Shown here: positions 22,505 through 61,107 of the stretch, piece after piece | Layout: every line of letters begins with the position of its first letter | How positions within the stretch are numbered: the first letter of the stretch is position 1 | Source of the DNA: a virus | Length of the DNA stretch: 64,000 bases | Virus record (IMG/VR): IMGVR_UViG_3300046167_000733 | Coordinates: 43,777 to 107,776 of that record | Strand: one strand, 5' to 3' | Made by a program: the position numbers and the translations under genes | Notes under the pieces: generated by a model | Seen by the model: only the letters and a program-made list of their open reading frames with translations | Database searches by the model: none | What the model was told of the DNA's origin: nothing

Positions 22505-25500
22505 ATGACAAACACATTTACCTCAAATGTCTTTTCTTCTACTTATAAAGACGATTTCCTTGATAGTGATAACTATCATCGCATATTGTTTAATAGTGGT
22601 AGAGCGTTACAGGCACGAGAACTCACCCAAATGCAGACAATTATCCAAGAGGAGATTGCAAGGTTTGGTAGAAACATATTTAAAGATGGTGCGGCAGTAA
22701 ACCCAGGTGGTCCATCTATAATGAATGACTACGAGTTTGTTAAACTTAATACAGAAACAAACACATTACCCGTAGACACATCAACACTTGTAGGAACAGA
22801 ATTTACAGGTGCAAGTTCAACGGTTAAAGCAAGAGTTGTAGAGGTTGTTGCCTCAACAGGGTCAGACCCCGCAACACTTTATGTTCAGTATACAAATACT
22901 TCAGGTGGTGCAACAGGTGCAACCCCTGTTCGTTTCGTTGCAGGTGAAGTTGTTGGTAACGGAAGTATAAACCTTACAGTACAATCAACAAATACTGCAA
23001 GTAACCCTGCTATAGGTGTCGGTTGTAAAATTAACAATGCGGCAGGAGACTTCTTTGTAAGAGGACACTTTGTATTTGTAAAACCACAAGGACTTATACT
23101 TTCCAAATATTCAAATAATGTTACTAAGGTTGTTGGTTTCAAAATAACAGAAGACATTATAACTGCAACAGATGATAGTGCTTTATACGACAATCAGGGT
23201 GCAACACCTAATGTGACAAGTGCAGGTGCAGACAGATATCGTATCGCACTTGTTTTAACAACACAAGACTTAATCGCATCAGATGAGAACTTTGTATTCT
23301 ATTGTAAAGTAGTAGATGGAAAGATTGTTGACCAAGTATCAGGTACAGATGATTACAACAAAATAAATGACCTTCTTGCAGAAAGAACAAAAGAAGAATC
23401 AGGAAACTATATTGCTAATAGATTTAAGTCAAACTTAAAAGATAGTGCCTCAAGTCACATTCTTGGTATATCTGATGGTATTGCATATGTTAATGGTTAT
23501 CGTGCAGAAAACCCTGCTCCTATATCTTTAATAATACCAAAACCAAGAACAACTACTACAATCAATAACGATGTAGCACCTATTTCATATGGTTCATACT
23601 TTATATGTTCTACACTCAAGGGTAATTTAAATGTATCTGCATTTGCTTCTGTGAACTTATCCACACATGCAAGTAACCCAAGTGGTAGTGTTGTTGGTAC
23701 TGCAAAAGTAAGATATGTAGAAAAAGACGGAAGTAATCACAAAGTATATCTCTTTGATATCAAAATGAATAGTGGTATTAAATTGAGTAGTGTTAAGACA
23801 GTTGGTACAGGTTCTGCAGATGTTGGTATTATTGCTTTAGAAAATAGTAAAGCAGTTCTCAAAGAAGCAAATAAAACGAACCTTGTATATACGACTTCCA
23901 AAGCAAGACCTTCAAATATTACTGATGTATCTTTTGAGGTACAAAGAATTAAAACAGGGACATCATCGGGTACAGGTACACTTACAATAGGAGGACTTGG
24001 TACAGGTGAGACCTATACTAATACAGGTCAAGTGATTGCAACTGTTGATTCTTCAGGTGCTGTTGTTACTCCTTCAAGTATAACAGGTGGTTCTTCACTT
24101 GTGTTTGCAGGATTACCTACATCAAGTGCGATGACATTCTATACAAAAGTAAATAAATCAGCACCAAGTGTAAGACAAAAAACACTTAGTGCTACTTTAT
24201 TACATAGTGCAGTAATTGAGTCCGATGGGACAGGGGTAAGGTTCATAGACTTACACGCAACAGATTTACATAAAGTAAGTGCAGTATACGCCGCTGATAG
24301 TTCAGATTTATCTTCAAGATTTAGTATTGACAATGGTCAACGCGCAAGTCATTATGCAAATGCTCGTTTGGTTGTTCAAGACGGTGCAACTCCACCTTCA
24401 GGAGATGTGATTGTAAAGTATCAACACTTCACACATGGTGCAGGTGACTTCTTCTCAGTCAACTCTTATGATGGTCAAGTAGACTATGAGAATATTCCAA
24501 CTTACAATGTTAACTCAAGAACTTCAGTAAATCTCAGAGATGTTATTGACTTCCGTTCTTCAGTAGACTCTGCAGGAACATTCACAGGTTCAGGGGCGGC
24601 ATTAAACGAGATACCAACTAATGGCGACACTTTCCAAGGCGACATAACATACTACTTACCAAGAAAAGATAAAGTCGTTATTACAACACAGGGTATAGTT
24701 AAAAATATTCAAGGCGATGCAGGATTTCAATCACAAATACCTCCAACACCAGAAAACACTCTTGCATTATTTGAACTAGAGCATAATGCATATGGACTAC
24801 ATGATAGTGATACTGTTGTAAGACCTATTGAGGCAAAACGATTCACTATGAAAGATATCTCTAAGTTAGAAAAAAGAGTAGACAAACTTGAAGAAGTTAC
24901 TTCATTATCACTTCTAGAGGTTGACACGAATGCATTACTTGTATTAGACTCTGCAGGTAATCCTCGTAGTAAGTCAGGTTTCTTTGTGGACAACTTTAGA
25001 AATCGTGCATTTGTAGATACACAAAACTTAGAGTATCGTGCCGCGATTGACCCATCACTTGGGTTTATGTCGCCTCAACAAAACACCGATAATGTTACAC
25101 TAAGATATGACTCAGACTTATCTACTAACACTATACTTAAAGGTGATACAGTATATATCAACCATACTCATGTTTCTGCAATCGCACAAACTAAAGTTTC
25201 TGGTACAGAAAATGTAAACCCATTTGGTGTTATAACAGGAATGGGTAACATAACATTATCACCTACTTCAGATGAATGGCAAGATACATTCTTCCAACCA
25301 GAGAATGTAATCAATCAAACTGCCGAAGAAAACTTAGGAGACCTCAATCAGGGGTTGACCTTTGGTACTAATGGTAACTTTGATTGGTCATCAAATAACT
25401 TTGTTCCTGTAACTGGATTTGGTCCCACAGTAATGAATATGTTAAATGGTTGGAACGGCACTACAATGTGGAACAGTCTTGGTGTTTCTACATTTGGAAC

Positions 25501-31442: not shown

Positions 31443-32178
31443 GGGATTTGTTGTTGTTGCATCAAGAAAAAACAACTTCTACATATATGCCATTAATCTC
31501 ATAGAGTCCATCAAGGACTTCTATCCCGAAGCACACGTCACTCTTGTTACGGAAGAAAGATTTATTGATGGACGAGAAGACATTGCTGACAATATTATAT
31601 TTTGTGATGACCACTATCGTGCAAAGTTATGGGGTATGGCAAACTCACCTTATGATGTAACAATGTATGTTGATGCAGATATGGAATGTGAACACGAAGA
31701 TATAATGACCGTATGGGACAACCTTAGCGAGAATGATATGGTATTTCATGAACTTACAGAAGAGAGGTCTAAGTATTATACGATAAGACATTTTGATATT
31801 GAGAATAAAGAGAAAGAGGGTTGGTTCAGTCTATGTGGTGGTGTGTGCCTGTATAGAAGTTCCAATCCTCTTGTCAAGGAGTTTATGAATGAGTGGTATG
31901 AGTTATATGATTTACAACACAGTAATCTATGGAGACCCGATTGTTTCACTAATGATGAGCAATGGAATGGACTAAAGAAGTTTGACCAGACTACGCTTTG
32001 GTATATGGTAAATACTATGGAAAAGTATAAAGACCTCAAGATAGGTTTCTTTCATGATGACATTCGTTGGAACTACTTTACACAATATCAGTATGAGAAC
32101 CTAAAATCAATTGAGAATAAACCTGTCATACTCAGACATTATTCAGGTTGTCTTGAAAAGGATAAGGCATTAGTGTGA
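31435..32178 (+). CDS. Glycosyltransferase-like protein (GT-A type)
   Basis: The 247-residue product has an N-terminal nucleotide-sugar-binding look (KGFVVVASRKNNFYIYAINL, IESIKDFYPEAHVTLVTEE) and a DxD motif in MYVDADME (about residues 80-87), the metal and sugar-nucleotide site of GT-A glycosyltransferases. WFSLCGGVCLYRSSNPLVKE and the Trp/Asp-rich WRPDCFTNDEQWNG follow, similar to GT8-type enzymes. The acceptor is unknown. It sits between fibre genes and overlaps a 2OG oxygenase gene, so fibre or host-surface modification is a reasonable guess. Confidence 0.65.
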   Translation: MNKGFVVVASRKNNFYIYAINLIESIKDFYPEAHVTLVTEERFIDGREDIADNIIFCDDHYRAKLWGMANSPYDVTMYVDADMECEHEDIMTVWDNLSENDMVFHELTEERSKYYTIRHFDIENKEKEGWFSLCGGVCLYRSSNPLVKEFMNEWYELYDLQHSNLWRPDCFTNDEQWNGLKKFDQTTLWYMVNTMEKYKDLKIGFFHDDIRWNYFTQYQYENLKSIENKPVILRHYSGCLEKDKALV

Positions 32179-32828
32179 GAGATATACCTATAAATAATCC
32201 ATATGTCAAGGAGGCATTGAACAACTTCCTTTGGTATTACGAGAATAAAGAACTTGTTATAAAAACAATAAAGGTAGATGGAGAAGAAAATAAAAGAAAA
32301 GACTTTACATCAAAGGAATATTGTGATAAGATAGTTTCAATGGGTAGAAGTCATAATGGATATCCAGAAAGTATATACACATATCCTCTTAAAGAATCAA
32401 ATATAAAGGACAATACGCATGCGGCAGAACTCATTAAAAGATACAGTGATTACAATACAGAATTATGTTCTATTCTTTGCACTAAGAATAATGCTTTAGC
32501 AACAATGTATCCACCTAATGGTTTTATTGGGTGGCACAACAATGCTAACGCAAGTGCTTACAATCTTATATTCTCGTGGAGTGAAACAGGGGATGGTCTC
32601 TTTCAATATATAGATGGAGAGACAGGTGATAATATTATAATGAAAGATAAAAAGGGATGGCAATGTAAAGCAGGATACTTCGGTTCATATGAAGAACATC
32701 AAAGTAAACTTGTTTATCATTCTGCGGAAACTGATTGTTGGAGAATGACTATATCGTATATGTTCAATCGAACCGAGATGAGTTCTAATATACAAGAAGA
32801 GACCATAGAGGAGATAATGTATATCTAA
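32175..32828 (+). CDS. 2-oxoglutarate/Fe(II)-dependent oxygenase-like protein
   Basis: The GTG at 32175 overlaps the TGA of the glycosyltransferase gene (GTGA). The 217-residue protein carries the iron-site pattern: a GWHNN segment (His plus Asn) after MYPPNGFI, a distal VYHSAET His about 75 residues later and CWRMTISYMF with the Arg expected to bind 2-oxoglutarate. Many marine T4-like phages encode this type. They are thought to hydroxylate proteins or nucleic acids; the substrate is unknown. The HxN in place of HxD is seen here. It is the last gene before the intergenic repeat region. Confidence 0.7.
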   Translation: MRDIPINNPYVKEALNNFLWYYENKELVIKTIKVDGEENKRKDFTSKEYCDKIVSMGRSHNGYPESIYTYPLKESNIKDNTHAAELIKRYSDYNTELCSILCTKNNALATMYPPNGFIGWHNNANASAYNLIFSWSETGDGLFQYIDGETGDNIIMKDKKGWQCKAGYFGSYEEHQSKLVYHSAETDCWRMTISYMFNRTEMSSNIQEETIEEIMYI

Positions 32829-32900
32829 CCCTCTCCAGTATTCTTAAAGTTTTACCTATATGTAGTACTACTTATACAAATGAAGATTTATAGAATTATT

Positions 32901-32973
32901 ATATGTATATCCAACCTTCCCTAAAGAGTACTTTAAGTATACCATACTTTTATATTTTTGTCAAGCATAAAAT
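32901..32973. repeat. Intergenic repeat, copy 1
   Basis: A 51-base block (32901-32951) is identical to 60354-60404. After a seven-base variable gap in both copies comes a shared 15-base block TGTCAAGCATAAAAT. The 221-base gap from 32829 to 33049 holds no gene: it contains this repeat, an antisense promoter within it, and the late box for the next gene. Confidence 0.9.
32936..32964 (-). promoter_or_regulatory. Antisense sigma70-type promoter inside repeat copy 1
   Basis: On the minus strand, TTGACA (32959-32964), a 17-base spacer ending TGG, and TATACT (32936-32941). It faces the 3' end of the oxygenase gene. Spacing and extended -10 match the plus-strand early promoters. Confidence 0.65.
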
Positions 32974-33009: not shown

Positions 33010-33017
33010 TATAAATA
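33010..33017 (+). promoter_or_regulatory. T4-type late promoter box before giant fibre unit
   Basis: TATAAATAG lies 32 bases before the ATG at 33050 and should drive the small Ig-like gene and the giant fibre gene. Confidence 0.75.
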
Positions 33018-33049: not shown

Positions 33050-33418
33050 ATGGCACTAGTATCACACGAAGATATTGTAATAAACCAAGGCACAGATGTC
33101 GCGATAGAAATCCATCTCGTTCACGATAGTGGTAGTGTTTATAACTTAACAAACAGAACAGTTACCTCAAAAATGAAGAGAAGATATGCTGACTCAGCAG
33201 GAGACCCTGCTACAGTATCTTTCAACTCAGTTATTGCGACACCTCCAACAGATGGTATCGTAACACTATCCCTAACTAACGCAGTCACAGATGCCCTTGA
33301 AACAAGAGGTCGTTATGTGTATGATGTAGAACTTTCTTATCAGGATAGTGATAGTAATACAATCATAGAAAGAATTCTCCAAGGAGAAGTAGAAGTTTCA
33401 CCCTCAGTAACGAGATAG
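33050..33418 (+). CDS. Small beta-sandwich virion protein
   Basis: This 122-residue protein reads like one Ig-type or upper-baseplate (BppU-N-like) domain: DIVINQGTDVAIEIHLVHDS, NRTVTSKMKRRYADSAGDPA, GIVTLSLTNAVTDAL, GRYVYDVELSYQ and RILQGEVEVSPSV. Comparable domains bind fibres to tails in other phages. It is the first gene after the late box and lies six bases upstream of the giant fibre gene, so a role in attaching that fibre is plausible but unproven. Confidence 0.6.
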   Translation: MALVSHEDIVINQGTDVAIEIHLVHDSGSVYNLTNRTVTSKMKRRYADSAGDPATVSFNSVIATPPTDGIVTLSLTNAVTDALETRGRYVYDVELSYQDSDSNTIIERILQGEVEVSPSVTR

Positions 33419-33424
33419 ATTAAT

Positions 33425-36400
33425 ATGCCTTCAGTTATATACCGAGACCCAAAGATTAAAATAAATGCTGTTGTCTATAAGGACACCACAGTTAGAGTAA
33501 AGAAACTTGTAGTAGGGACTCCTGTAAAAAGAGTTACTTCAGGTGCATTTAATATTGATAACCTTTCAGGAGTAAGTACTACAGGAAAAACAGCAGGTTC
33601 TATACTTGCATACAATGCTTCCGATACAAAATGGTCTACCACAAACTTTGCTACAGGTAATAACATTTCTATTACTTTTGATAGTGCCGCAAACACATTT
33701 ACCTTTGGTACGAATGCCGCATTAACGAATGTAACTTCACTTGACGCAACGACTACAAGTACAGTACGCGGTGTATTATCTGTAACAGATGCAGGAGGAG
33801 ATGGTTCTCTTGCGTACAATAATAGTACAGGTGTAGTAACATATACTGGACCAAGTGCAAGTGAAACACGCGCACATGTTTCTGCCGTTGATGGTGGAGG
33901 TGATGGGTCATTTACATACAACTCTGGAACAGGGGCATTCACTTATACTGGACCAAGTGCCGCAGAAGTTCGCGCACATATAACCGCAAACAAAGGTTTA
34001 AACATAAGTAGTGGTGAGTTGAATATTGACTCTGCTAATGTCAAGGGAATGTTCTCAGGGGGAACAGGGGTTACTTATAATAATGGAGTAATATCCATAG
34101 GTCAACCTGTAGCAACAAGTTCAGATGTTACCTTTAACGATGTTGTTATATCAGGTGACCTTACTGTATCAGGAACACAAACTACTGTCAATACCGAAAC
34201 ATTATTACTTGCAGATAATGTAATTGTTGTTAACTCAAATGCCACAGGTACTCCATCCGAGAATGGTGGTATTGAAGTTGAACGTGGTGACGCAACTAAT
34301 AAGACCTTGATATGGAACGAGGCAATCGACAAGTGGACAGTAGGTTCAGAAACATTCGTGGCAGGAACATTTGAAGGTAATCTTACAGGTAATGTAACAG
34401 GAACTGTATCAAGTATCTCAAACCATACCACCGCGAACTTAACAGAAAACACTAATCTTTATCATACTACTGCTCGTGCAAGAGGTGCGGTAAGTGCAAG
34501 TGGAGACTTATCTTACAACTCATCTACAGGTGTATTCTCTATTGATGTTGAAGACGCATATACTAAGGTAAACTTTGATAGTGACTTGAGTGCCGCAAAC
34601 ACAGGACAACTTCCAGAAGGTTCTAATCTTTATCATACTACCGCACGCGCACGAGGCGCAGTATCCGTAACGGACGCAGGGGGTGATGGTTCACTCTCAT
34701 ATAATAGTAGTACAGGTGTTATTACATATACAGGTGCAAGTGCGGCAGAGGTTCGTGCTCATTTTAGTGCGGGAGGAGACCTCTCTTATAACTCTTCAAC
34801 AGGACAGTTCTCGTTTGATGTTGAGAGTGTTTATACTAAGGCAAACTTTGATAGTGATTTAGGTATCGCAAATACAGGTCAACTTCCAGAAGGTAGTAAT
34901 CTATATTATACAAATGCGAGAGCAGATGCTAGAATAACAACTGCTTCAGTGACCGCTACAGGGGCGTTAATGGACAGTGAGTTGACTGATTTGGCAGGAG
35001 TCAAAGGTGTCACTATATCCACACTACAACCTAAACCATCTGAAGGTGCGTTTGCTAATGGAGATAAAACTAAACTTGATGCGATTGAATCAGGGGCAAC
35101 AGCAGACCAGACAGATGCAGAGATAAGAACTGCAGTAGAATCCGCAACAGATTCAAATGTATTTACAGACGCAGACCATAGTAAACTCAACGCAATAGAA
35201 GCATCCGCTACTGCTGACCAGACAGATGCTGAAATAAAAACTGCGTATGAGAATAACTCAGACACAAACGCATTTACAGATGCAGAGAAAACAAAACTTT
35301 CTAACATAGAAGCAAGTGCTGATGTTACCGATACTGCCAATGTAACCTCTGCGGGTGCGTTGATGGACTCCGAAGTTACTGACTTAGCAGGAGTTAAGGG
35401 AGTAACCATATCAACACTTCAGGTCAAACCAACAGAAGGTGCTTTTGCGGATGGAGATAAAACTAAACTAGACGGAATAGAAGCATCTGCGGATGTGACG
35501 GATACTGCTAATGTAACTTCAGCGGGTGCGTTGATGGACTCCGAACTAACAGATTTAGCAGGTGTTAAGGGTGTCACAATATCTACATTGCAACCTAAAC
35601 CCTCGGAAGGTGCGTTTGCTAATGGAGATAAAACTAAACTAGACGGGATAGAAGCAAGTGCAGATGTGACGGATACTGCTAATGTGACAGCGGCAGGGGC
35701 ATTAATGGACTCTGAGTTGACTGACCTAGCAGGGGTAAAAGGAGTTACAATTTCAACTCTCAAGTAAAACCCTCAGAAGGGGCGTTTGCTAACGGAGACA
35801 AGACTAAACTTGACGGTATTGAAGCATCAGCAGATGTCACGGATACTGCGAATGTAACTTCGGCAGGTGCGTTAATGGATAGTGAACTTACTTCTATTGC
35901 AGATGTAAAAGCACTAGACCAATCCGTTATATCAGGGGCAAGTCCAAACTTCACAACAACTAATATGAGTGATGCAACCAATAAAAGGTTCATGACAGAT
36001 GCTCAAGAAAGTAAGTTAGACGGAATAGAAGCAAGTGCGACTGCAGACCAAACCGATGCAGAAATCAGGGCGGCAGTAGAAGCGGCAACAGACTCGAATG
36101 TATTTACAGATGCTGACCATTCTAAACTCAATGCGATTGAGGCGAGTGCTGACGTTACAGATACTGCTAACGTTACTGCGGCAGGTGCTTTGATGGATAG
36201 TGAAGTAGATGCTGATATAAAAACATTATCACTTCCTGCTAACACAACAATATCTGCATTCGGTAAAACCTTAGTAGATGATGCTGATGCCGCTACCGCA
36301 AGAACAACATTAGGTATTGATGCTTCTGGAACAGATAATTCTACAAATGTTACTCTAGCAGGTTCACTTGATTATATAACTATATCAGGACAAGAAATAA

Positions 36401-39400
36401 CTAGAAATGCTATTAACTTGTCTACAGATGTAACAGGAACATTACCTATAAGCAATATGGCGGCAACAGCATTAACAACTGTTCAGACTGCCGCTAATGA
36501 ATCCGCACACTTAGCATTAACGGCACAAGAGGGTGACGTTGTAGTAAGGTCAGACCAAAATAAAACATATATGCATAATGGTGGTTCTGCAGGTACAATG
36601 AACGACTATACATTACTCGCAACTCCAACTGATGCCGTAACAAGTGTCAATGGTAATACTGGTGTTGTAACTGTAACAGAAAACGTTACCACAAACTTAA
36701 CAATCACGGGTACAGATGCCGCAAGAACTATAGTTTCTTCGGACGGTACAAATGCAGTAATCCCTGTTGCTACCGATAGTGTATCAGGGGTGATGTCTGC
36801 CGCAGACCATACTAAGTTAAGTGGAATAGAAACTAGTGCGGATGTTACCGACACTGCTAATGTAACCTCAGCAGGTGCGTTGATGGATAGTGAAGTCACT
36901 AACCTCGCACAAGTAAAAGCATTCGATGCTTCTGATTATGCGACTTCCGCGCAGGGTACAAAGGCAGACTCCGCATTACAAAATGTGGTAGAGGATAGTT
37001 CTCCTCAGTTGGGTGCTAACCTTGACTTGAATTCAAATGATATTACAGGTACAGGTAACATATCAACTACAGGTGACTTTACTCTTACAGATACAACAAG
37101 TGGAAGTGCCGCAGGACCAGAACTTACTTTACATAGAGACATAACAGGTGCAGACGCAAACTACCTTGGACAAATAAAGTTTACTGGTGATAACGATGCA
37201 GACCAAAGTAATGTTTTTGCTAAGATTACAGGTAAGATTAGTGATGCATCAGACGGAAGTGAAGATGGTCTTATTGAGTTTGCTCTTAAGAAAGCAGGAA
37301 GCAATAACATAGGTGCAAGACTTACAAGTACAGACTTGAAACTTATAAACGGAACAGGATTAGAAGTTGCAGGAAACATAACTGTAACAGGTACAGTAGA
37401 TGGTAGAGATGTCGCAACAGATGGTACTAAGTTAGATGGTGTTGAAGCATCAGCAGATGTAACCGACACTGCAAACGTTACTGCCGCAGGTGCGTTAATG
37501 GATAGTGAACTCACTGACCTTGCGGGTGTTAAGGGTGTCACAATATCTACTCTACAACCTAAACCCGTCAGAAGGTGCATTTCGCGAATGGCGATAAGAC
37601 CAAGTTAGATGGTATTGAAGCATCTGCCGATGTAACCGATACCGCAAATGTAACTGCGGCAGGAGCACTAATGGACTCCGAGTTAACAGACTTAGCAGGG
37701 TGTCAAAGGTGTTACGATTTCTACACTTCAGGTAAAACCATCGGAAGGTGCTTTCGCGGATGGTGACAAAACTAAGTTAGACGCAATAGAAGCATCTGCT
37801 GATGTAACCGATACTGCTAATGTTACTGCCGCAGGAGCATTGATGGACAGTGAGTTAACAGACTTAGCAGGAGTCAAAGGTGTCACGATATCTACCTTGC
37901 AACCTAAACCATCTGAAGGTGCTTTTGCTAATGGAGATAAGACTAAGTTAGATGGTATTGAAGCATCTGCGGATGTTACTGACACTGCCAATGTTACTTC
38001 AGCAGGAGCATTGATGGATTCAGAGTTAGCATCTATTGCTGATGTGAAAGCATTAGACCAATCTGTTGTATCTGGAGCAAGTCCTACATTCGGTACTGCA
38101 AATATGACCGATGCCTCTAACAAGAGGTTTATGACTGACGCACAAGAAACTAAACTTGATAGTGTTGAATCCTCTGCTACTGCAGACCAAACTGCCGCAG
38201 AAATACTTACTGCGATTAAGACAGTAGACGGAGCAAGTTCAGGGTTAGATGCTGACTTACTCGATGGAGTACAAGGTTCTTCATATCTTAGAAGTGATGC
38301 TAATGACACCTTTACAGGTAACTTAACTGTAGCAGGTAAAATTGGTCTTGGTGATGCAGATACTGTTGCAGACCACGAGTTACATATTCAAAGTGCTTCA
38401 CCAACCATAAGACTAGAAGATACAGACGGAAACCAAAGATTTGATATTACACAAAACGGTGGCACTACTAATGTTGATTATGAATCAGGTGTAATCTTTA
38501 AGAAAGCAGATGCTACAGAAATATTCAGAATTGATGGTGCGGGTATAGATGTAACGGGTATTATTACTGCTACAAGTCATATTGATGTGCCAGACAATTC
38601 ATATCTATTGATGGGTACAGGTGACGATTTACAACTCTATCACGATGGTAGTAACTCATATGTTAGAGATGTAGGAACAGGTGACCTTTACATTGATACT
38701 AACTCAGGAATACATCTGTATGCTAATGGCAGTGAAACTATGCTATATGCACAACCTAATGCGGGTGTTCAACTATTCTATGATAATGTCAAGAAAATTG
38801 AAACGGTATCTTCTGGGATAGAGGTATCAGGTACTCTTCAAGTTGAAGGTGCTACAGGCGAAACTATAAGACTACACAGAGATGACACTACAGTAACAGG
38901 TGGCAATTTAATAGGACAAATTGCATTTTCACACAACGACGATACTAATAGTGGTGATGGTGTACTTATAAAAGGTGTTGCTAATGGCGGTACAGGTAAT
39001 TCTACCTTACAAATCCATACAGGAACGCCAGGAAGTTTAACTGAAAAGATTAGAATTTCTGATAGTAAGGTTGAGAATAAAGTTGACCTAGAAGTAACAG
39101 GTGATGTAACTGCAACAGGTGCATTTAAAACAACAGCGGCGGGTACGGGTCAACAATTATTTAATGCAACTGTTGATTTAGGAACTAATACCAGAGGATT
39201 CTCACTGGTTAGTCCTGCTAGTGATAGCGGTAGTACGGCATTTAAATGGGAAACAGGAAACTCTATACTATGGGAACTTGACACTGCTGAAGCAAAATCA
39301 ATGTTCCTAAACTCAGCAGGTAACTTGGGTCTAGGTACTTACTCACAAAGTGTCAAACTTGATGTGAACGGTACTATAAAGTATACAGGTTTAAGGGGTA

Positions 39401-55542: not shown

Positions 55543-55577
55543 GTCTAAAAATAAATGAAAAAAAGTGAAAAAAGTAC

Positions 55578-55606
55578 TTGACATTCTCTGTTTTATATGG
55601 TACTGT
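55578..55606 (+). promoter_or_regulatory. Sigma70-type early promoter
   Basis: TTGACA (55578-55583), 17 bases ending in TGG, and TACTGT (55601-55606). It lies in the gap after the gp23 terminator and reads into the gene at 55632. A near copy lies 359 bases downstream. Confidence 0.75.
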
Positions 55607-55631
55607 AAGACATAATAAGAAAGGAAATATT

Positions 55632-55928
55632 ATGAAAGTAAATAGAAAAGATATCGAGAACAGGAAAATGACAAGAGAGTTTTTTGATTATGTTCTTAGT
55701 TTCTATGGTAAAGGTGGTCTTTATGACTTCGGTGCCAAGTTAGATGATGTAATCACTGCAACGCAGATTTACCTCAACAAAATCTTGACGAATAAAAATA
55801 AGTTTTATACTTGGGGTGATGGCGATAGTCTTGACCGCGAAAGAGTTCGTGACATCTTGTTAGATGAAGACATCTTCGGTTACGAGTGGAAAACAAATGC
55901 TAAACTTCACTTAGACTTAACAAACTAA
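55632..55928 (+). CDS. Small early protein, 98 aa
   Basis: I do not recognise this protein. It starts MKVNRKDIENRKMTREFFDY, with a GKGGLYDFGAKLDDVITATQ middle and a C-terminal half with DGDSLDRERVRDILLDEDIF. The ATG at 55632 follows GAAAGGAAAT at normal distance; the open frame from 55578 would start in the promoter itself. Two promoters with near-identical leaders flank it, so this and the next gene may be a locally duplicated regulatory arrangement. Confidence 0.65.
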   Translation: MKVNRKDIENRKMTREFFDYVLSFYGKGGLYDFGAKLDDVITATQIYLNKILTNKNKFYTWGDGDSLDRERVRDILLDEDIFGYEWKTNAKLHLDLTN

Positions 55929-55936
55929 AAAAGTGC

Positions 55937-55965
55937 TTGACATTCTCTGTCAAGTATGGTACGGT
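55937..55965 (+). promoter_or_regulatory. Sigma70-type early promoter with inverted repeat
   Basis: TTGACA (55937-55942), 17 bases ending in TGG, and TACGGT (55960-55965). The -35 lies in a perfect dyad CTTGACATTCTCTGTCAAG (55936-55954) that could be an operator. Confidence 0.7.
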
Positions 55966-55996
55966 AACACATAATAGAGAAAAGGAAAAAAATATT

Positions 55997-56823: not shown

Positions 56824-57179
56824 TGGGAACTAAGGCAGGAAAGATTTGGGGAAACACAGAACTGATACACGCAAATGGTGTATTAGAGTTTCATCGTATC
56901 AACTTCAAAAAGGGATACAAGTGTTCCGAACATTTACACAAACATAAATGGAATGGTTTCTTTGTTGAGAGTGGAACTATGATTGTTCGTGTATGGCAAG
57001 ACGGAGAACAGGATGGTCTTGTTGATGAAACAATACTAACTGCAGGAGACTTCTGTCAGGTAAAACCTGGAAAGATACATCAGTTTGAAGGTGTTCAAGA
57101 TGGTGTTGCGTTTGAACTCTACTGGGCAGAGTTTGCTCATGATGATATTGAAAGAAGAACTATAGGGACTTCTATTTAA
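56823..57179 (+). CDS. Cupin-fold protein
   Basis: This 118-residue protein has a single cupin barrel: a metal-site region EHLHKHKWNGFFVESGTMIV (His residues at about 38, 40 and 42 plus Glu), then TILTAGDFCQVKPGKIHQFE with the second-motif His, and FELYWAEF at the end. Cupins bind metal ions or small ligands and range from isomerases to sensors; no substrate can be read from the sequence. It is the last gene of the early unit from 55.6 kb and converges on a minus-strand late gene, overlapping it by eight bases. Confidence 0.75.
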   Translation: MGTKAGKIWGNTELIHANGVLEFHRINFKKGYKCSEHLHKHKWNGFFVESGTMIVRVWQDGEQDGLVDETILTAGDFCQVKPGKIHQFEGVQDGVAFELYWAEFAHDDIERRTIGTSI

Positions 57180-57708
57180 TCTCGAACTCAGAGAAAGCAA
57201 AGGAAGCACTGAAAGTTAGATACGATGCATCACCTGATGTAGAGTTAAATGTTATTGCACCTAAGTCAGTAGGAATACAATCTCTATATGTTATTTGTCT
57301 TATTGAGTTATTGTGACTTGAAAGGATAGACAAGGTTATATCAGAATATGTTGGTATTGCGGTTCTTCTTTTTTCTGCAGATATTTGACCCACGTTCACA
57401 CCACGTTGCATCCAATCAAACATCTCTCTATAGGAAGTCATATTTTCGTCAAGGAGAATACTGAACTCGACAGAACCAAATGTTATTTTGTCACCAACCA
57501 AAGGAACAGAAGATAATCGTCTTACAGAAAGGGGAACAGAGTTAACTGCCATAGAAGGGTGAGATACCTCTTGAACAAAATACTCTAGATTGGGATATCG
57601 TGTTCTATCAATACTAATACGGAAACCCGTAGGTTGTAAGTAGTTCACATTAGATGTAAGTTCTACATCTTTCAATTGAGTTTTAAGTGTTGCAGTATTC
57701 TGTGGCAT
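57172..57708 (-). CDS. Tail-tube-like late protein of unknown role
   Basis: The 178-residue product has the tube-type layout: NYLQPTGFRISIDRTRYPNL, EYFVQEVSHPSMAVNSVPLS, VGDKITFGSVEFSILLDENM, TSYREMFDWMQRGVN and a late DCIPTDLGAITFNSTSG plus LTFSASFAFSEFEI. This parallels gp19 and gp54 closely in order of strands. It lies alone on the minus strand among early plus-strand genes, with its own late box. It may be a second tube or tube-end protein such as a gp3 or gp54 counterpart; which one is not clear. Confidence 0.6.
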   Translation of the reverse strand: MPQNTATLKTQLKDVELTSNVNYLQPTGFRISIDRTRYPNLEYFVQEVSHPSMAVNSVPLSVRRLSSVPLVGDKITFGSVEFSILLDENMTSYREMFDWMQRGVNVGQISAEKRRTAIPTYSDITLSILSSHNNSIRQITYRDCIPTDLGAITFNSTSGDASYLTFSASFAFSEFEIK

Positions 57709-57732: not shown

Positions 57733-57740
57733 TATTTATA
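57733..57740 (-). promoter_or_regulatory. T4-type late promoter box for the minus-strand tube-like gene
   Basis: The minus strand reads TATAAATAG 24 bases before the ATG at 57708, with AGGA in the leader. It marks this isolated gene as late, although its neighbours are early. Confidence 0.75.
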
Positions 57741-57791
57741 TAGAAAATACAGAGATAATTAAAATATATATAGTAACATAAGGAATATATT

Positions 57792-58241
57792 ATGATAAAT
57801 TTAGAATCCATATTGGCAGAGTGGAAAGAGGACTCCCTTATAAAGGAGGGTCAACTTGACAAGAATAGTATGGACACTCCCAAGATGCATGCCAAGTATC
57901 TTGAGTATCTATCCCTAACCAAACTACGATTGAAGAAGGCAGAGTTTTCTCAGAAGTCTCTGTTGAAAGATAAGTGGTTATGGTACAACGGGAAGATGGA
58001 CGAAGAGACTATGAGGTCAAAGAACTGGTCACCCGACCCGTTCAATGGACTCAAAGTATTGAAGGGTGACCTAGAGAAATACTACTACGATGCAGACCAA
58101 GAGATACAGGACAGCGAGATACGCATTCAGTATCTAAAAACTATTGTTGAAACCCTTGAGAGTATCATGAATAATCTCAACTGGAGACACACCACGATTG
58201 GTAACATCATCAAGATAAGACAACTTGAGGCAGGATACTAA
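57792..58241 (+). CDS. uvsY: Recombination mediator UvsY
   Basis: This 149-residue protein fits UvsY (T4: 137 residues), which loads the UvsX recombinase on gp32-coated DNA. Landmarks are LESILAEWKEDSLI, MHAKYLEYLSLTKLRLKKAE, LLKDKWLWYNGKMDEETM, LKVLKGDLEKYYYDADQEIQ and the basic C-terminus with NNLNWRHTTIGNIIKIRQLE. It is followed by a small gene and uvsW, a usual association. UvsX itself is not in the window. The stop overlaps the next start (TAATG). Confidence 0.82.
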   Translation: MINLESILAEWKEDSLIKEGQLDKNSMDTPKMHAKYLEYLSLTKLRLKKAEFSQKSLLKDKWLWYNGKMDEETMRSKNWSPDPFNGLKVLKGDLEKYYYDADQEIQDSEIRIQYLKTIVETLESIMNNLNWRHTTIGNIIKIRQLEAGY

Positions 58242-58429
58242 TGAGTGTTGAAAAGAACGCAAAGGCATTCGCAGAAGAAAGAGTTAACTTCCTTATAGAT
58301 AATAACTACATTGATAAAAATCGACGTGAAGAAGTATTCGAATCGTTAAGATATAAGTTTATAGAAGAAGATGCCAGAGACAAAGAATACATTGCCAAAC
58401 ACAATAACCGTAGGACTCAAGAATCATAG
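58241..58429 (+). CDS. Small protein between uvsY and uvsW
   Basis: This 62-residue charged helical protein (MSVEKNAKAFAEERVNFLID, NNYIDKNRREEVFESLRYKF) is not recognised. It overlaps uvsY by one base and uvsW by 59 bases, so all three are translated together. A role in recombination is suggested only by this packing. Confidence 0.6.
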   Translation: MSVEKNAKAFAEERVNFLIDNNYIDKNRREEVFESLRYKFIEEDARDKEYIAKHNNRRTQES

Positions 58430-59871
58430 TATGATGTTGGTTGATGCGGAGGCGCATCAGATACCAGAACTACGAGAATACTTTTCTTTCTTTGTACCCA
58501 ACTATAGATATGTCCCTGCCTACAAGAACAAAAAGTGGGATGGCAAAATCAAGTTATTCAATCAGGTCACGCGCGAACTCAATGTGGGTTTGTATGAACA
58601 CTTGCGTAAGTTTTGTAGTGACCGAATGTATCCCCTACGATTACAGGAGACCGACTATGGACATCCTGCTCAGAGAAATAAAGTAGACCACCAAACCCTT
58701 GTGAAGTTTCAAGAGAGTTTGAAGTTACCCTTTCCCCTACGCGATTATCAGTACGAAGCAGTGTCACACGGCATCGAGAAAAAACGCGCGATTTTATTAT
58801 CCCCTACAGGTTCGGGTAAATCCTTTATCTGTTATAATCTGATACAATGGTACATGGATAACTATGGCGACAAACAGATACTGATTGTTGTTCCTACAAC
58901 AAGTCTAGTCGAACAACTCTATAAAGACTTTGATGAGTATGGATTTGATGTAGAAGAGAATGTGCATCGTATCTATAGTGGTAAGGATAAGAATACCGAC
59001 AAACCTATTATCATATCAACGTGGCAATCTATTTACAAGTTTAGTCGAGAATGGTACGAGAACTTTGGTTGCGTAGTAGGTGATGAGGTACATCTCTTCA
59101 AGGCAAAGTCTCTTTCGGGTATTATGAATAAGTGTGTGAATGCTGAATATAGATTTGGTATGACAGGTACACTCGATGGAACCTGCAACAAATAAACTTG
59201 TGCTTGAAGGATTATTTGGTGTAACGAAAAGAGTGACGATGACCAGAGACCTACAGGAGAAAGGTACACTTGCAAAATTAGATATCTCCATTCTATTATT
59301 GAGGTATCATAATGATGTGTGCCACTGGATGAAGGGTAAGACCTATCAAGAGGAAATAGATTATATTGTCACGAATGAGAAACGCAATAGATTGATTACT
59401 AATCTAGCGGCAGACCAGAAAGGAAACTCACTGGTGTTATTTCAGTTCGTAGAAAAGCATGGTAAACCATTATTCGATATGATACGCGACAAGGTAGGCG
59501 AGAGACCCGTATATTACGTCTCAGGAGAGGTAGATGCAAAAGACAGGGAACAGATAAGGGGAATCGTAGAGAAACAAAAGAATGCTATCATTGTTGCGTC
59601 ACTCGGTACATTCTCTACAGGTATCAACATAAGGAACCTACATAATATTATATTTGCATCTCCAAGTAAGTCTCAAGTGAAAGTGTTGCAATCTATTGGT
59701 AGGGCATTACGAATGAGTGATGATGGTAGTGTTGCTAAACTCTATGACATTGCAGATGACTTTCATGTGAAATCTCATAAGAACTTTACACTGAAACATA
59801 GTGGTGAAAGAATTAAGATATATAGTAAGGAACAGTTCCCATATAACATATTTAAAGTGGACTTAAAGTAG
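58371..59871 (+). CDS. uvsW: DNA/RNA helicase UvsW, with one frameshift
   Basis: The gene lies in two frames that meet near 59182; removing one C from AACCTG gives about 499 residues (T4 UvsW: 503). The N-terminus (QIPELREYFSFFVPNYRYVP, KWDGKIKLFN) matches UvsW's substrate-binding domain. The helicase core has Walker A in LLSPTGSGKS, the DEVH box in GDEVHLF, MTGTLDG, and in the second half YYVSGEVDAKDREQ, VASLGTFSTGINIRNLHN and VLQSIGRALR. UvsW remodels recombination intermediates and replication forks. The break is a single extra base and probably a sequence error. Confidence 0.9.
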
Positions 59872-59885
59872 GACTAAATAATATT

Positions 59886-60353
59886 ATGAGTAAAGAGTTA
59901 TACGAAACAAAACAATTTAAACTTACATCAGGTGAGGAAGTTATTGCTGAAGTTGTCCAATGGAATATGGATGACGAGACAGAGATAGTTGTCCGTAAGG
60001 CAATGAAACTTGTCATGGGTGAAACTGAAGGTGGTAGTTATAGATATTATTCCTTTCGACCTTGGATGGTATATCAAGAAAACTTACAGGACTTTATTAT
60101 ATTGAACGCGGCACATATTGTTGGTATTGCTCAACCTGTTGATTCTATATTGATACAATATGAAGAAGCACTTATTAGTATGCAAGAAATGTTTGAGAGT
60201 AGAGAAACCCAAGCAACCGTAACAGGTAATGGTGATGTGAATGAACTGACCCAGAAGTTAAGAGAACATTTAAAGGACATTGAAGAAGCAAATGATGATG
60301 AAGGAAACGACGACAATGTGCTTCCATTTATAGACCCAAAGACATTACATTAA
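59886..60353 (+). CDS. Conserved phage protein with Sm-like N-terminal domain
   Basis: This 155-residue protein begins KQFKLTSGEEVIAEVVQWNM, then IVVRKAMKLVMGETEGG and YYSFRPWMVYQENLQDFIIL. I know this pattern from marine T4-like phages; it resembles a small Sm-like beta-barrel, but no function is established. The C-terminal third is Glu/Asp-rich (KDIEEANDDEGNDDNV). It lies between uvsW and gp55, and its stop is followed directly by repeat copy 2 with an antisense promoter pointing into it. Confidence 0.65.
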   Translation: MSKELYETKQFKLTSGEEVIAEVVQWNMDDETEIVVRKAMKLVMGETEGGSYRYYSFRPWMVYQENLQDFIILNAAHIVGIAQPVDSILIQYEEALISMQEMFESRETQATVTGNGDVNELTQKLREHLKDIEEANDDEGNDDNVLPFIDPKTLH

Positions 60354-60426
60354 ATATGTATATCCAACCTTCCCTAAAGAGTACTTTAAGTATACCATAC
60401 TTTTCAGAATATGTCAAGCATAAAAT
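60354..60426. repeat. Intergenic repeat, copy 2
   Basis: Bases 60354-60404 are identical to 32901-32951, followed at the same distance by TGTCAAGCATAAAAT (60412-60426). The repeat starts on the base after the upstream stop codon. It ends 17 bases before the TTGACT of the gp55 promoter. Confidence 0.9.
60389..60417 (-). promoter_or_regulatory. Antisense sigma70-type promoter inside repeat copy 2
   Basis: On the minus strand, TTGACA (60412-60417), 17 bases ending TGG, and TATACT (60389-60394). Seven spacer bases differ from copy 1, yet both boxes and the spacing are kept. It is divergent from the gp55 promoter. Confidence 0.65.
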
Positions 60427-60442
60427 GAAAATAAATATTTGC

Positions 60443-60471
60443 TTGACTTCTGCACCCCGTTGTGATAGAAT
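60443..60471 (+). promoter_or_regulatory. Sigma70-type early promoter for gp55
   Basis: TTGACT (60443-60448), 17 bases ending in TGA, and TAGAAT (60466-60471), 36 bases before the gp55 ATG. Confidence 0.8.
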
Positions 60472-60507: not shown

Positions 60508-61107
60508 ATGAATAAAGTGAAACCAAGAGATAGACCACACTACGTTAATAACGCGCAGTTCTCACAAGCAGTGGTTGACTATGTTACTATATTAAATGAA
60601 GCACGCGATAAAAAGGCAAACCGACTTCCAAAGGTTCCCGACTATATCGCATCCTGTTTCCTAAAAATATCTGAAGGTCTTTCCCATAAATCAAACTTCG
60701 TGAGATACACATATAGAGAAGAGATGGTAATGGACGCAGTGGAGAACTGCCTCAAGGCGATAGAGAACTACAACCTAGAAGCGGCAACACGAACAGGTAA
60801 ACCAAATGCGTTTGCTTACTTCACACAAATATCTTGGTATGCATTCCTACGCAGAATAGCAAAGGAAAAGAAACAACAAGATATCAAAATGAAATATATC
60901 AATCAATCTGGTATTGAGAACTTTCTTGATAATGAACTTGGTGATGCTCAGAGTGCCACAGTTGCACAAGCATTCGTTGACCAACTTCGTATTCGTATTG
61001 ATGAGGTAAAGGTCAAGGATAGTGAGTGGAAAGAGATTGTAAAGAAACAACGTAAAAGACGTACAGTCAAAGTTGATAGTGACCTATCGGGGTTTATAAG
61101 TGATTGA
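60508..61107 (+). CDS. 55: Late sigma factor gp55
   Basis: The 199-residue product is the T4-type late sigma factor (T4 gp55: 185 residues), which directs host RNA polymerase to TATAAATA boxes. It has RPHYVNNAQFSQAVVDYVTI, IASCFLKISEGLSHKSNFVR, MVMDAVENCLKAIENYN and FAYFTQISWYAFLRRIAKEK, the sigma region-2-like pattern of the family. The gene has its own early promoter. Together with gp33 at 2.25 kb and the ten late boxes it gives a coherent late switch. The next gene starts inside its last codons. Confidence 0.93.
   Translation: MNKVKPRDRPHYVNNAQFSQAVVDYVTILNEARDKKANRLPKVPDYIASCFLKISEGLSHKSNFVRYTYREEMVMDAVENCLKAIENYNLEAATRTGKPNAFAYFTQISWYAFLRRIAKEKKQQDIKMKYINQSGIENFLDNELGDAQSATVAQAFVDQLRIRIDEVKVKDSEWKEIVKKQRKRRTVKVDSDLSGFISD

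Follow-up and report, generated by a model that had tools for sequence, protein, structure and literature searches.

A predicted early promoter with a G-rich leader, antisense upstream of gp55 in marine T4-like phages

Described systems and the present locus

Antisense RNA is often regarded as noise. In T4, the origins oriF and oriG use middle promoters and oriE apparently an early one. T4-type phages reportedly also carry PeSLs, attributed to Arbiol 2010 and Comeau 2014 (both cited in PMC4503421), cassettes in which an early sigma70 promoter is joined to a stem-loop terminator. T4 expresses uvsW from a late promoter, and the UvsW protein unwinds R-loops at origins (PMC3016281), and G clusters near the 5′ end of an RNA promote R-loops (PMC4245955). 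Cyanophages of the kind considered here are without MotA and AsiA, and in cyanophage S-PM2 an antisense RNA of ~225 nt, CfrI, has been seen experimentally at psbA and a homing endonuclease gene (PMC2984593). Halovirus HF2 has intergenic repeats carrying promoters (PMC8707807), and antisense promoter sequences in bacteria are described as poorly conserved (PMC6978322).

The element described here is, by prediction, an early sigma70-type promoter with an extended −10, plus a G-rich leader of ~35 nt. It resembles PeSLs in being a small intergenic early sigma70 unit that is repeated in one genome and placed at exchanged-module junctions (copy 1 and loci L031/L032), and differs from them in having no stem-loop terminator, in a main copy that is fixed in the core region and antisense, and in its conserved G-rich leader. 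Like T4 oriF, oriG and oriE it has a low number of sites per genome and a position beside uvsW, and its promoter may share with theirs an R-loop-prone start. Whereas oriF and oriG combine a MotA middle promoter with a mapped unwinding element, the present element combines a host sigma70-type early promoter with a G cluster. CfrI likewise represents antisense transcription in a T4-like marine phage, in our case predicted; unlike CfrI, the element lies at uvsW/gp55, is widely conserved and is a prediction from sequence. The HF2 repeats are similar in being dispersed intergenic viral repeats that embed promoters, and different in belonging to an archaeal virus and another promoter class. We know of no conserved antisense site for the HF2 repeats. 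To our knowledge the element has no earlier description, and we found no mention of antisense RNA at gp55, in both cases within a partial coverage of the literature.

The repeat and its copies in one virus record

The DNA analysed is a 64-kb stretch (the window) of a 107,776-base virus record, whose first 43,776 bases were also covered. Two segments of the window, 32901–32973 and 60354–60426, are identical at 67 of 73 positions and share one layout: 51 exact bases, a 7-base gap with six of the seven bases different, and 15 exact bases. By our own arithmetic, chance alone would yield a repeat of 51 identical bases in a 64-kb sequence of this composition with an expectation of the order of 1e-20. 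On the minus strand both copies read TTGACA, a 17-bp spacer ending in TGG and then TATACT; the next 35 bases are the same in both. The variable gap of 7 bases falls inside the spacer, a part of a promoter in which changes are tolerated. Each copy scores 11 of 12 at the promoter positions, and the −35 and extended −10 of the element, ~17 bp apart, resemble those of the phage's other early promoters. The features of the two loci are as follows.

32901–32973, minus strand: copy 1 of the promoter-leader element, antisense to the upstream gene 32175–32828
32959–32964, minus strand: −35 of copy 1, TTGACA
32936–32941, minus strand: −10 of copy 1, TATACT, with TGG just before it; predicted start at ~32929
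32901–32935, minus strand: leader of copy 1, with the G-rich block AGGGAAGG at 32915–32922
32175–32828, plus strand: gene faced by copy 1, earlier labelled an oxygenase, a label that Pfam and PHROGs did not confirm, neither giving a match
32814–32850, minus strand: decayed leader-like remnant, probably of an older element, at the upstream gene's stop; the match, at 32814–32843, is only suggestive (E 0.05 in 6 kb)
33010–33017, plus strand: late-promoter-like TATAAATA before the tail fibre assembly gene 33050–33418
60354–60426, minus strand: copy 2 of the promoter-leader element, in the conserved position with the Sm-like gene on one side and gp55 on the other
60412–60417, minus strand: −35 of copy 2, TTGACA
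60389–60394, minus strand: −10 of copy 2, TATACT; predicted start at ~60382
60354–60388, minus strand: leader of copy 2, with the G-rich block AGGGAAGG at 60368–60375
58371–59871, plus strand: uvsW, read as two ORFs
59886–60353, plus strand: Sm-like gene, whose 3′ end is faced by copy 2
60443–60471, plus strand: sense early promoter of gp55, divergent, TTGACT-17-TAGAAT
60508–61107, plus strand: gp55, late sigma factor

The two uvsW ORFs, 58371–59195 and 59176–59871, overlap at 59176–59195 and amount to a frameshift relative to the single ORF of C48C1, which is either a sequencing error or real. The tail fibre genes at 33425–38082 contain many degenerate repeats ~171 bp apart. A second pair of early-promoter repeats, 50 nt long and 86% identical, lies on the plus strand at 55568–55617 and 55927–55976 and has no G-rich leader.

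Outside the window, a third copy occupies record positions 32483–32546, on the strand opposite to the window copies and in sense orientation, with the ATG of a 54-aa zinc-ribbon ORF immediately after it. It is identical to the window copies from the −10 through TATACA / TTAAAGTACTCTTTAGGGAAGGTTGGATATACA, and its spacer and −35 (TTGACT) are different. Because the −10 and leader are common to this sense copy as well, the repeated unit comprises a leader in addition to the promoter. This leader is missing from the record's remaining early-promoter-like sites, most of which precede an AAAGGA-like ribosome site.

These results bear on an earlier, sequence-only reading of the window. The exact repeat with its second block, the minus-strand promoter boxes with their 17-bp spacer ending in TGG, and the conserved transcript start that it had reported all stand, the leader being conserved in relatives as well. 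The gap varies as that reading had said, at one base fewer than the seven it had allowed. Its two dispersed copies of a regulatory unit remain a unit, with a minus-strand promoter that appears to be selected, and have been joined by the third copy, in sense and beyond the window.

The site upstream of gp55 in relatives

Copy 2 lies within the gene order uvsY, uvsW, Sm-like, element, gp55 (late sigma), gp47, uvsY being assigned from its position, by analogy with C48C1. C48C1 and the cyanophages examined likewise have uvsW, Sm-like and gp55 in this order. Across 80 IMG/VR loci collected via gp55, the DNA upstream of this gene typically holds a minus-strand promoter and a G-rich leader. By a strict pattern, the antisense promoter occurs in 56 of 78 gp55 upstream regions versus 3.9% in shuffles, and the promoter together with a purine/GGG block in 42 of the 78, compared with 0/78 on the sense strand and a shuffle rate of 0.05%, counts that are not independent events since the loci share descent. 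A sequence model, R1, gives an antisense match upstream of gp55 in 70 of the 80 loci (60 distinct sequences), a figure that is not independent because R1 was trained on 41 of these sequences, nearly all from the gp55 loci, and the loci are kin by descent. Loci in which another gene separates the element from gp55 also have it antisense, ~430–550 bp upstream of gp55.

Twelve named cyanophages, none of them in the R1 training, extend the comparison. The antisense promoter is found in 11, within the short gap that separates the Sm-like gene from gp55, with 10–12 of 12 positions matched and a spacing of 16–17 bp; MC09 is the exception. Syn33, S-RIM2, S-WAM1 and others have a short G-rich leader start in common, and the promoter is also present upstream of gp55 in C48C1 and Pelagibacter phage Mosig. 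One copy, at the same spot and in the same backward direction, is present in most marine T4-like phages examined. The −35/−10 pair is kept with the element in the relatives searched, and the opposite case named by the earlier reading, a repeat that has lost the pair, did not arise. The exact leader pattern ATATGTATATCCAACCTTCCCTAAAG had no match in IMG/VR; the shorter pattern TTAAAGTACTCTTTAGGGA gave 11 stretches, one of which (L095) has no promoter and is probably a chance match, and blastn of an 86-mer against named phages returned only weak matches to unrelated phages. The boundary of the uvsY-uvsW-Sm-like genes and gp55, with the element pointing backwards, is best explained as its ancestral place, an account that taken as a whole we regard as an even call.

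Of 57 elements, 48 have TATAAT as their −10 and 48 a 17-bp spacer; the −35 belongs to the types TTGACA, TGTACA and TTTACA. In 43 loci the element and the gp55 sense promoter share one type, and in 3 they differ, unclear loci being left out. Such agreement would be difficult to account for if the two promoters were not read by one host polymerase, and the matching classes imply selection on promoter function. A −35 that changes in step with its sense neighbour, in an element that appears to be kept in position and direction, points to selected antisense transcription during infection.

The leader has a distinct composition. At nt 16–25 after the −10, G makes up 66%/53% and C 3–4% in the 57 elements, and G content is back to ordinary levels directly after this block. 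With a start ~7 nt after the −10, the G-rich block would occupy about +10 to +19 of the predicted RNA. It is found in most elements and absent from some: several cyanophages have short or no G runs, and in L074 and L079, where the element lies on the antisense strand ~640–680 bases upstream of gp55, six C replace it. The core at 60360–60399 is 91–100% identical among close relatives, compared with 55–87% for most flanking intergenic DNA. A small dyad after the −10 weakly exceeds simple shuffles; RNAalifold predicted no pairs and no consensus fold for the element, and the covariance models of Rfam 15 gave no relevant match to it. Of the 57 elements, none has a terminator-like site on the plus strand and two have one on the element strand, and neither window copy has a terminator stem-loop.

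What the antisense promoter may do

From the observed anatomy, position, orientation and conservation of the element we infer its transcription, the timing of that transcription and an effect on the uvsW genes. The most likely reading, about evenly poised between right and wrong, is a conserved antisense early promoter that fires back over the uvsW/Sm-like 3′ end early in infection. Host RNA polymerase would start antisense transcription at the gp55-site element early in infection and read backwards through the 3′ end of the uvsW/Sm-like genes, holding their expression low or shielding them from the gp55 unit for as long as gp55 has not reprogrammed the polymerase. Late timing of the uvsW/Sm-like genes in this phage is presumed from T4, and the DNA directly upstream of these genes contains no exact TATAAATA. 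As uvsW is late in T4 and UvsW unwinds origin R-loops there, early uvsW silence would make sense in this phage too. The conserved place and direction suggest that early backward transcription at this site does something useful, and an antisense promoter that appears to be kept in position and direction across an abundant ocean phage family contrasts with the poor conservation described for its bacterial counterparts. The gp55 site would then bear on uvsW timing, the late-gene switch or replication start in phages that have neither MotA nor AsiA.

Plain antisense interference alone does not account for the G block, and because G clusters near an RNA 5′ end promote R-loops, the block points to an R-loop-primed origin as the main rival. 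The early element transcript would re-anneal via its G cluster, the hybrid would prime leading-strand synthesis and UvsW would later unwind the R-loop, a course of events that we consider unlikely. In its favour, R-loops are promoted where a strong promoter has a G cluster shortly downstream, close to the 5′ end of the RNA (PMC4245955), conservation ends after the leader, and the element has few copies per genome and lies beside uvsW, an R-loop helicase gene (PMC3016281); yet neither GC nor AT skew flips at the element in C48C1, G001 or G000, the block gives way to C6 in L074/L079 and is missing from cyanophages without G runs, G content is ordinary immediately beyond it, and copy 3 is an ordinary gene promoter. 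That the gp55-site element is a conserved R-loop-primed origin of Kyanoviridae-type marine T4-like phages, with the extra copies as secondary origins, is in our estimate unlikely.

Beside early antisense initiation at gp55, the reading that we prefer, copies of the element would have spread, copy 1 antisense at a junction near the tail fibre genes and copy 3 in sense as promoter and leader of the zinc-ribbon gene. Copy 1 is, judging from its distribution, a lineage-specific derived copy at a module junction. At tail fibre assembly gene loci the element is antisense in seven close relatives (L172–L178) and absent from thirteen more distant ones; the upstream gene's stop codon lies inside an intact element in L176–L178, and a putative decayed piece lies beside an intact element in the window and in L173–L175. 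In the copy-1 locus, homology to L088/L124 sets in precisely at the edge of the element, the upstream gene being different, and L031 and L032 have the element and gp55 in common with different upstream genes. Copy 3, which is by its setting probably co-opted as a gene promoter, precedes the zinc-ribbon gene in L192, L194 and L195 and is absent in L193, where the protein is 93% identical. Further copies stand in sense before a 121-aa ORF in G001 and in sense in L132, antisense into the 3′ end of a large-terminase-like gene before the tail sheath gene (L126 1501–1570; G011 22703–22772), and, at full length, antisense inside a coding gene of ~211 aa (L130 1501–1571; G002 57736–57806). With copy 3 and L132 in sense, the antisense direction is not intrinsic to the unit.

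The homology that begins at the element edge, the differing upstream genes of L031/L032 and the gains at the copy-1 and copy-3 sites would also be expected of a PeSL-like promoter cassette for homologous recombination between dispersed copies and module shuffling, its antisense direction being incidental. We find this quite unlikely, since the defining stem-loop terminator is absent, shuffling does not predict a gp55 site fixed in place and direction across the family, and the matching −35 classes imply selection on the promoter itself. Copies 1 and 3 would suit such a role; the invariant gp55 site would not.

A trans-acting RNA, or a short cis-antisense one, whose defined body pairs with the 3′ ends of the faced genes would agree with the conserved antisense promoter and 5′ leader and has a precedent in CfrI (PMC2984593), but is improbable: among close relatives, third positions at the Sm-like 3′ end, which would form the body of any antisense RNA, are 75–77% identical, no higher than in the rest of the gene, and terminator, Rfam match and consensus fold are all wanting. 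A conserved antisense RNA body was accordingly rejected, as conservation ends with the leader, and antisense initiation seems to matter more than any specific downstream RNA sequence. The sequence-only reading had proposed short antisense RNAs aimed at the 3′ ends of two genes; neither part is supported, as the minus strand beyond copy 2 has no terminator-like site for >2 kb, and other copies face other genes or, in the case of the third, lie in sense. That the leader is mainly the ribosome-binding leader of a since-lost minus-strand gene, as a start codon directly after the G block in copy 3, L092, L132, L192, L194 and L195 might suggest, is very improbable, given that no consistent minus-strand ORF follows the element at the gp55 site (34 of 57 are without a start codon in range) even though the element itself is retained throughout the family.

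If the antisense transcript from copy 2 were long, it would reach the minus-strand ORF at 57172–57708 in sense. This ORF, perhaps a tail tube gene by its place, goes with a minus-strand TATAAATA at 57733–57740, and the C48C1 genes at the same place are on the plus strand.

Concerted evolution of the copies was considered and rejected: the window phage has identical leaders, yet in the L175/L192 contig copy 1 is unlike copy 3, so it is not general. The small zinc-ribbon phage protein is widespread (L003 1543–1707, L131 1346–1501 and loci L192–L233), occurs in several genomic settings and has weak similarity to Lar-like restriction alleviation proteins.
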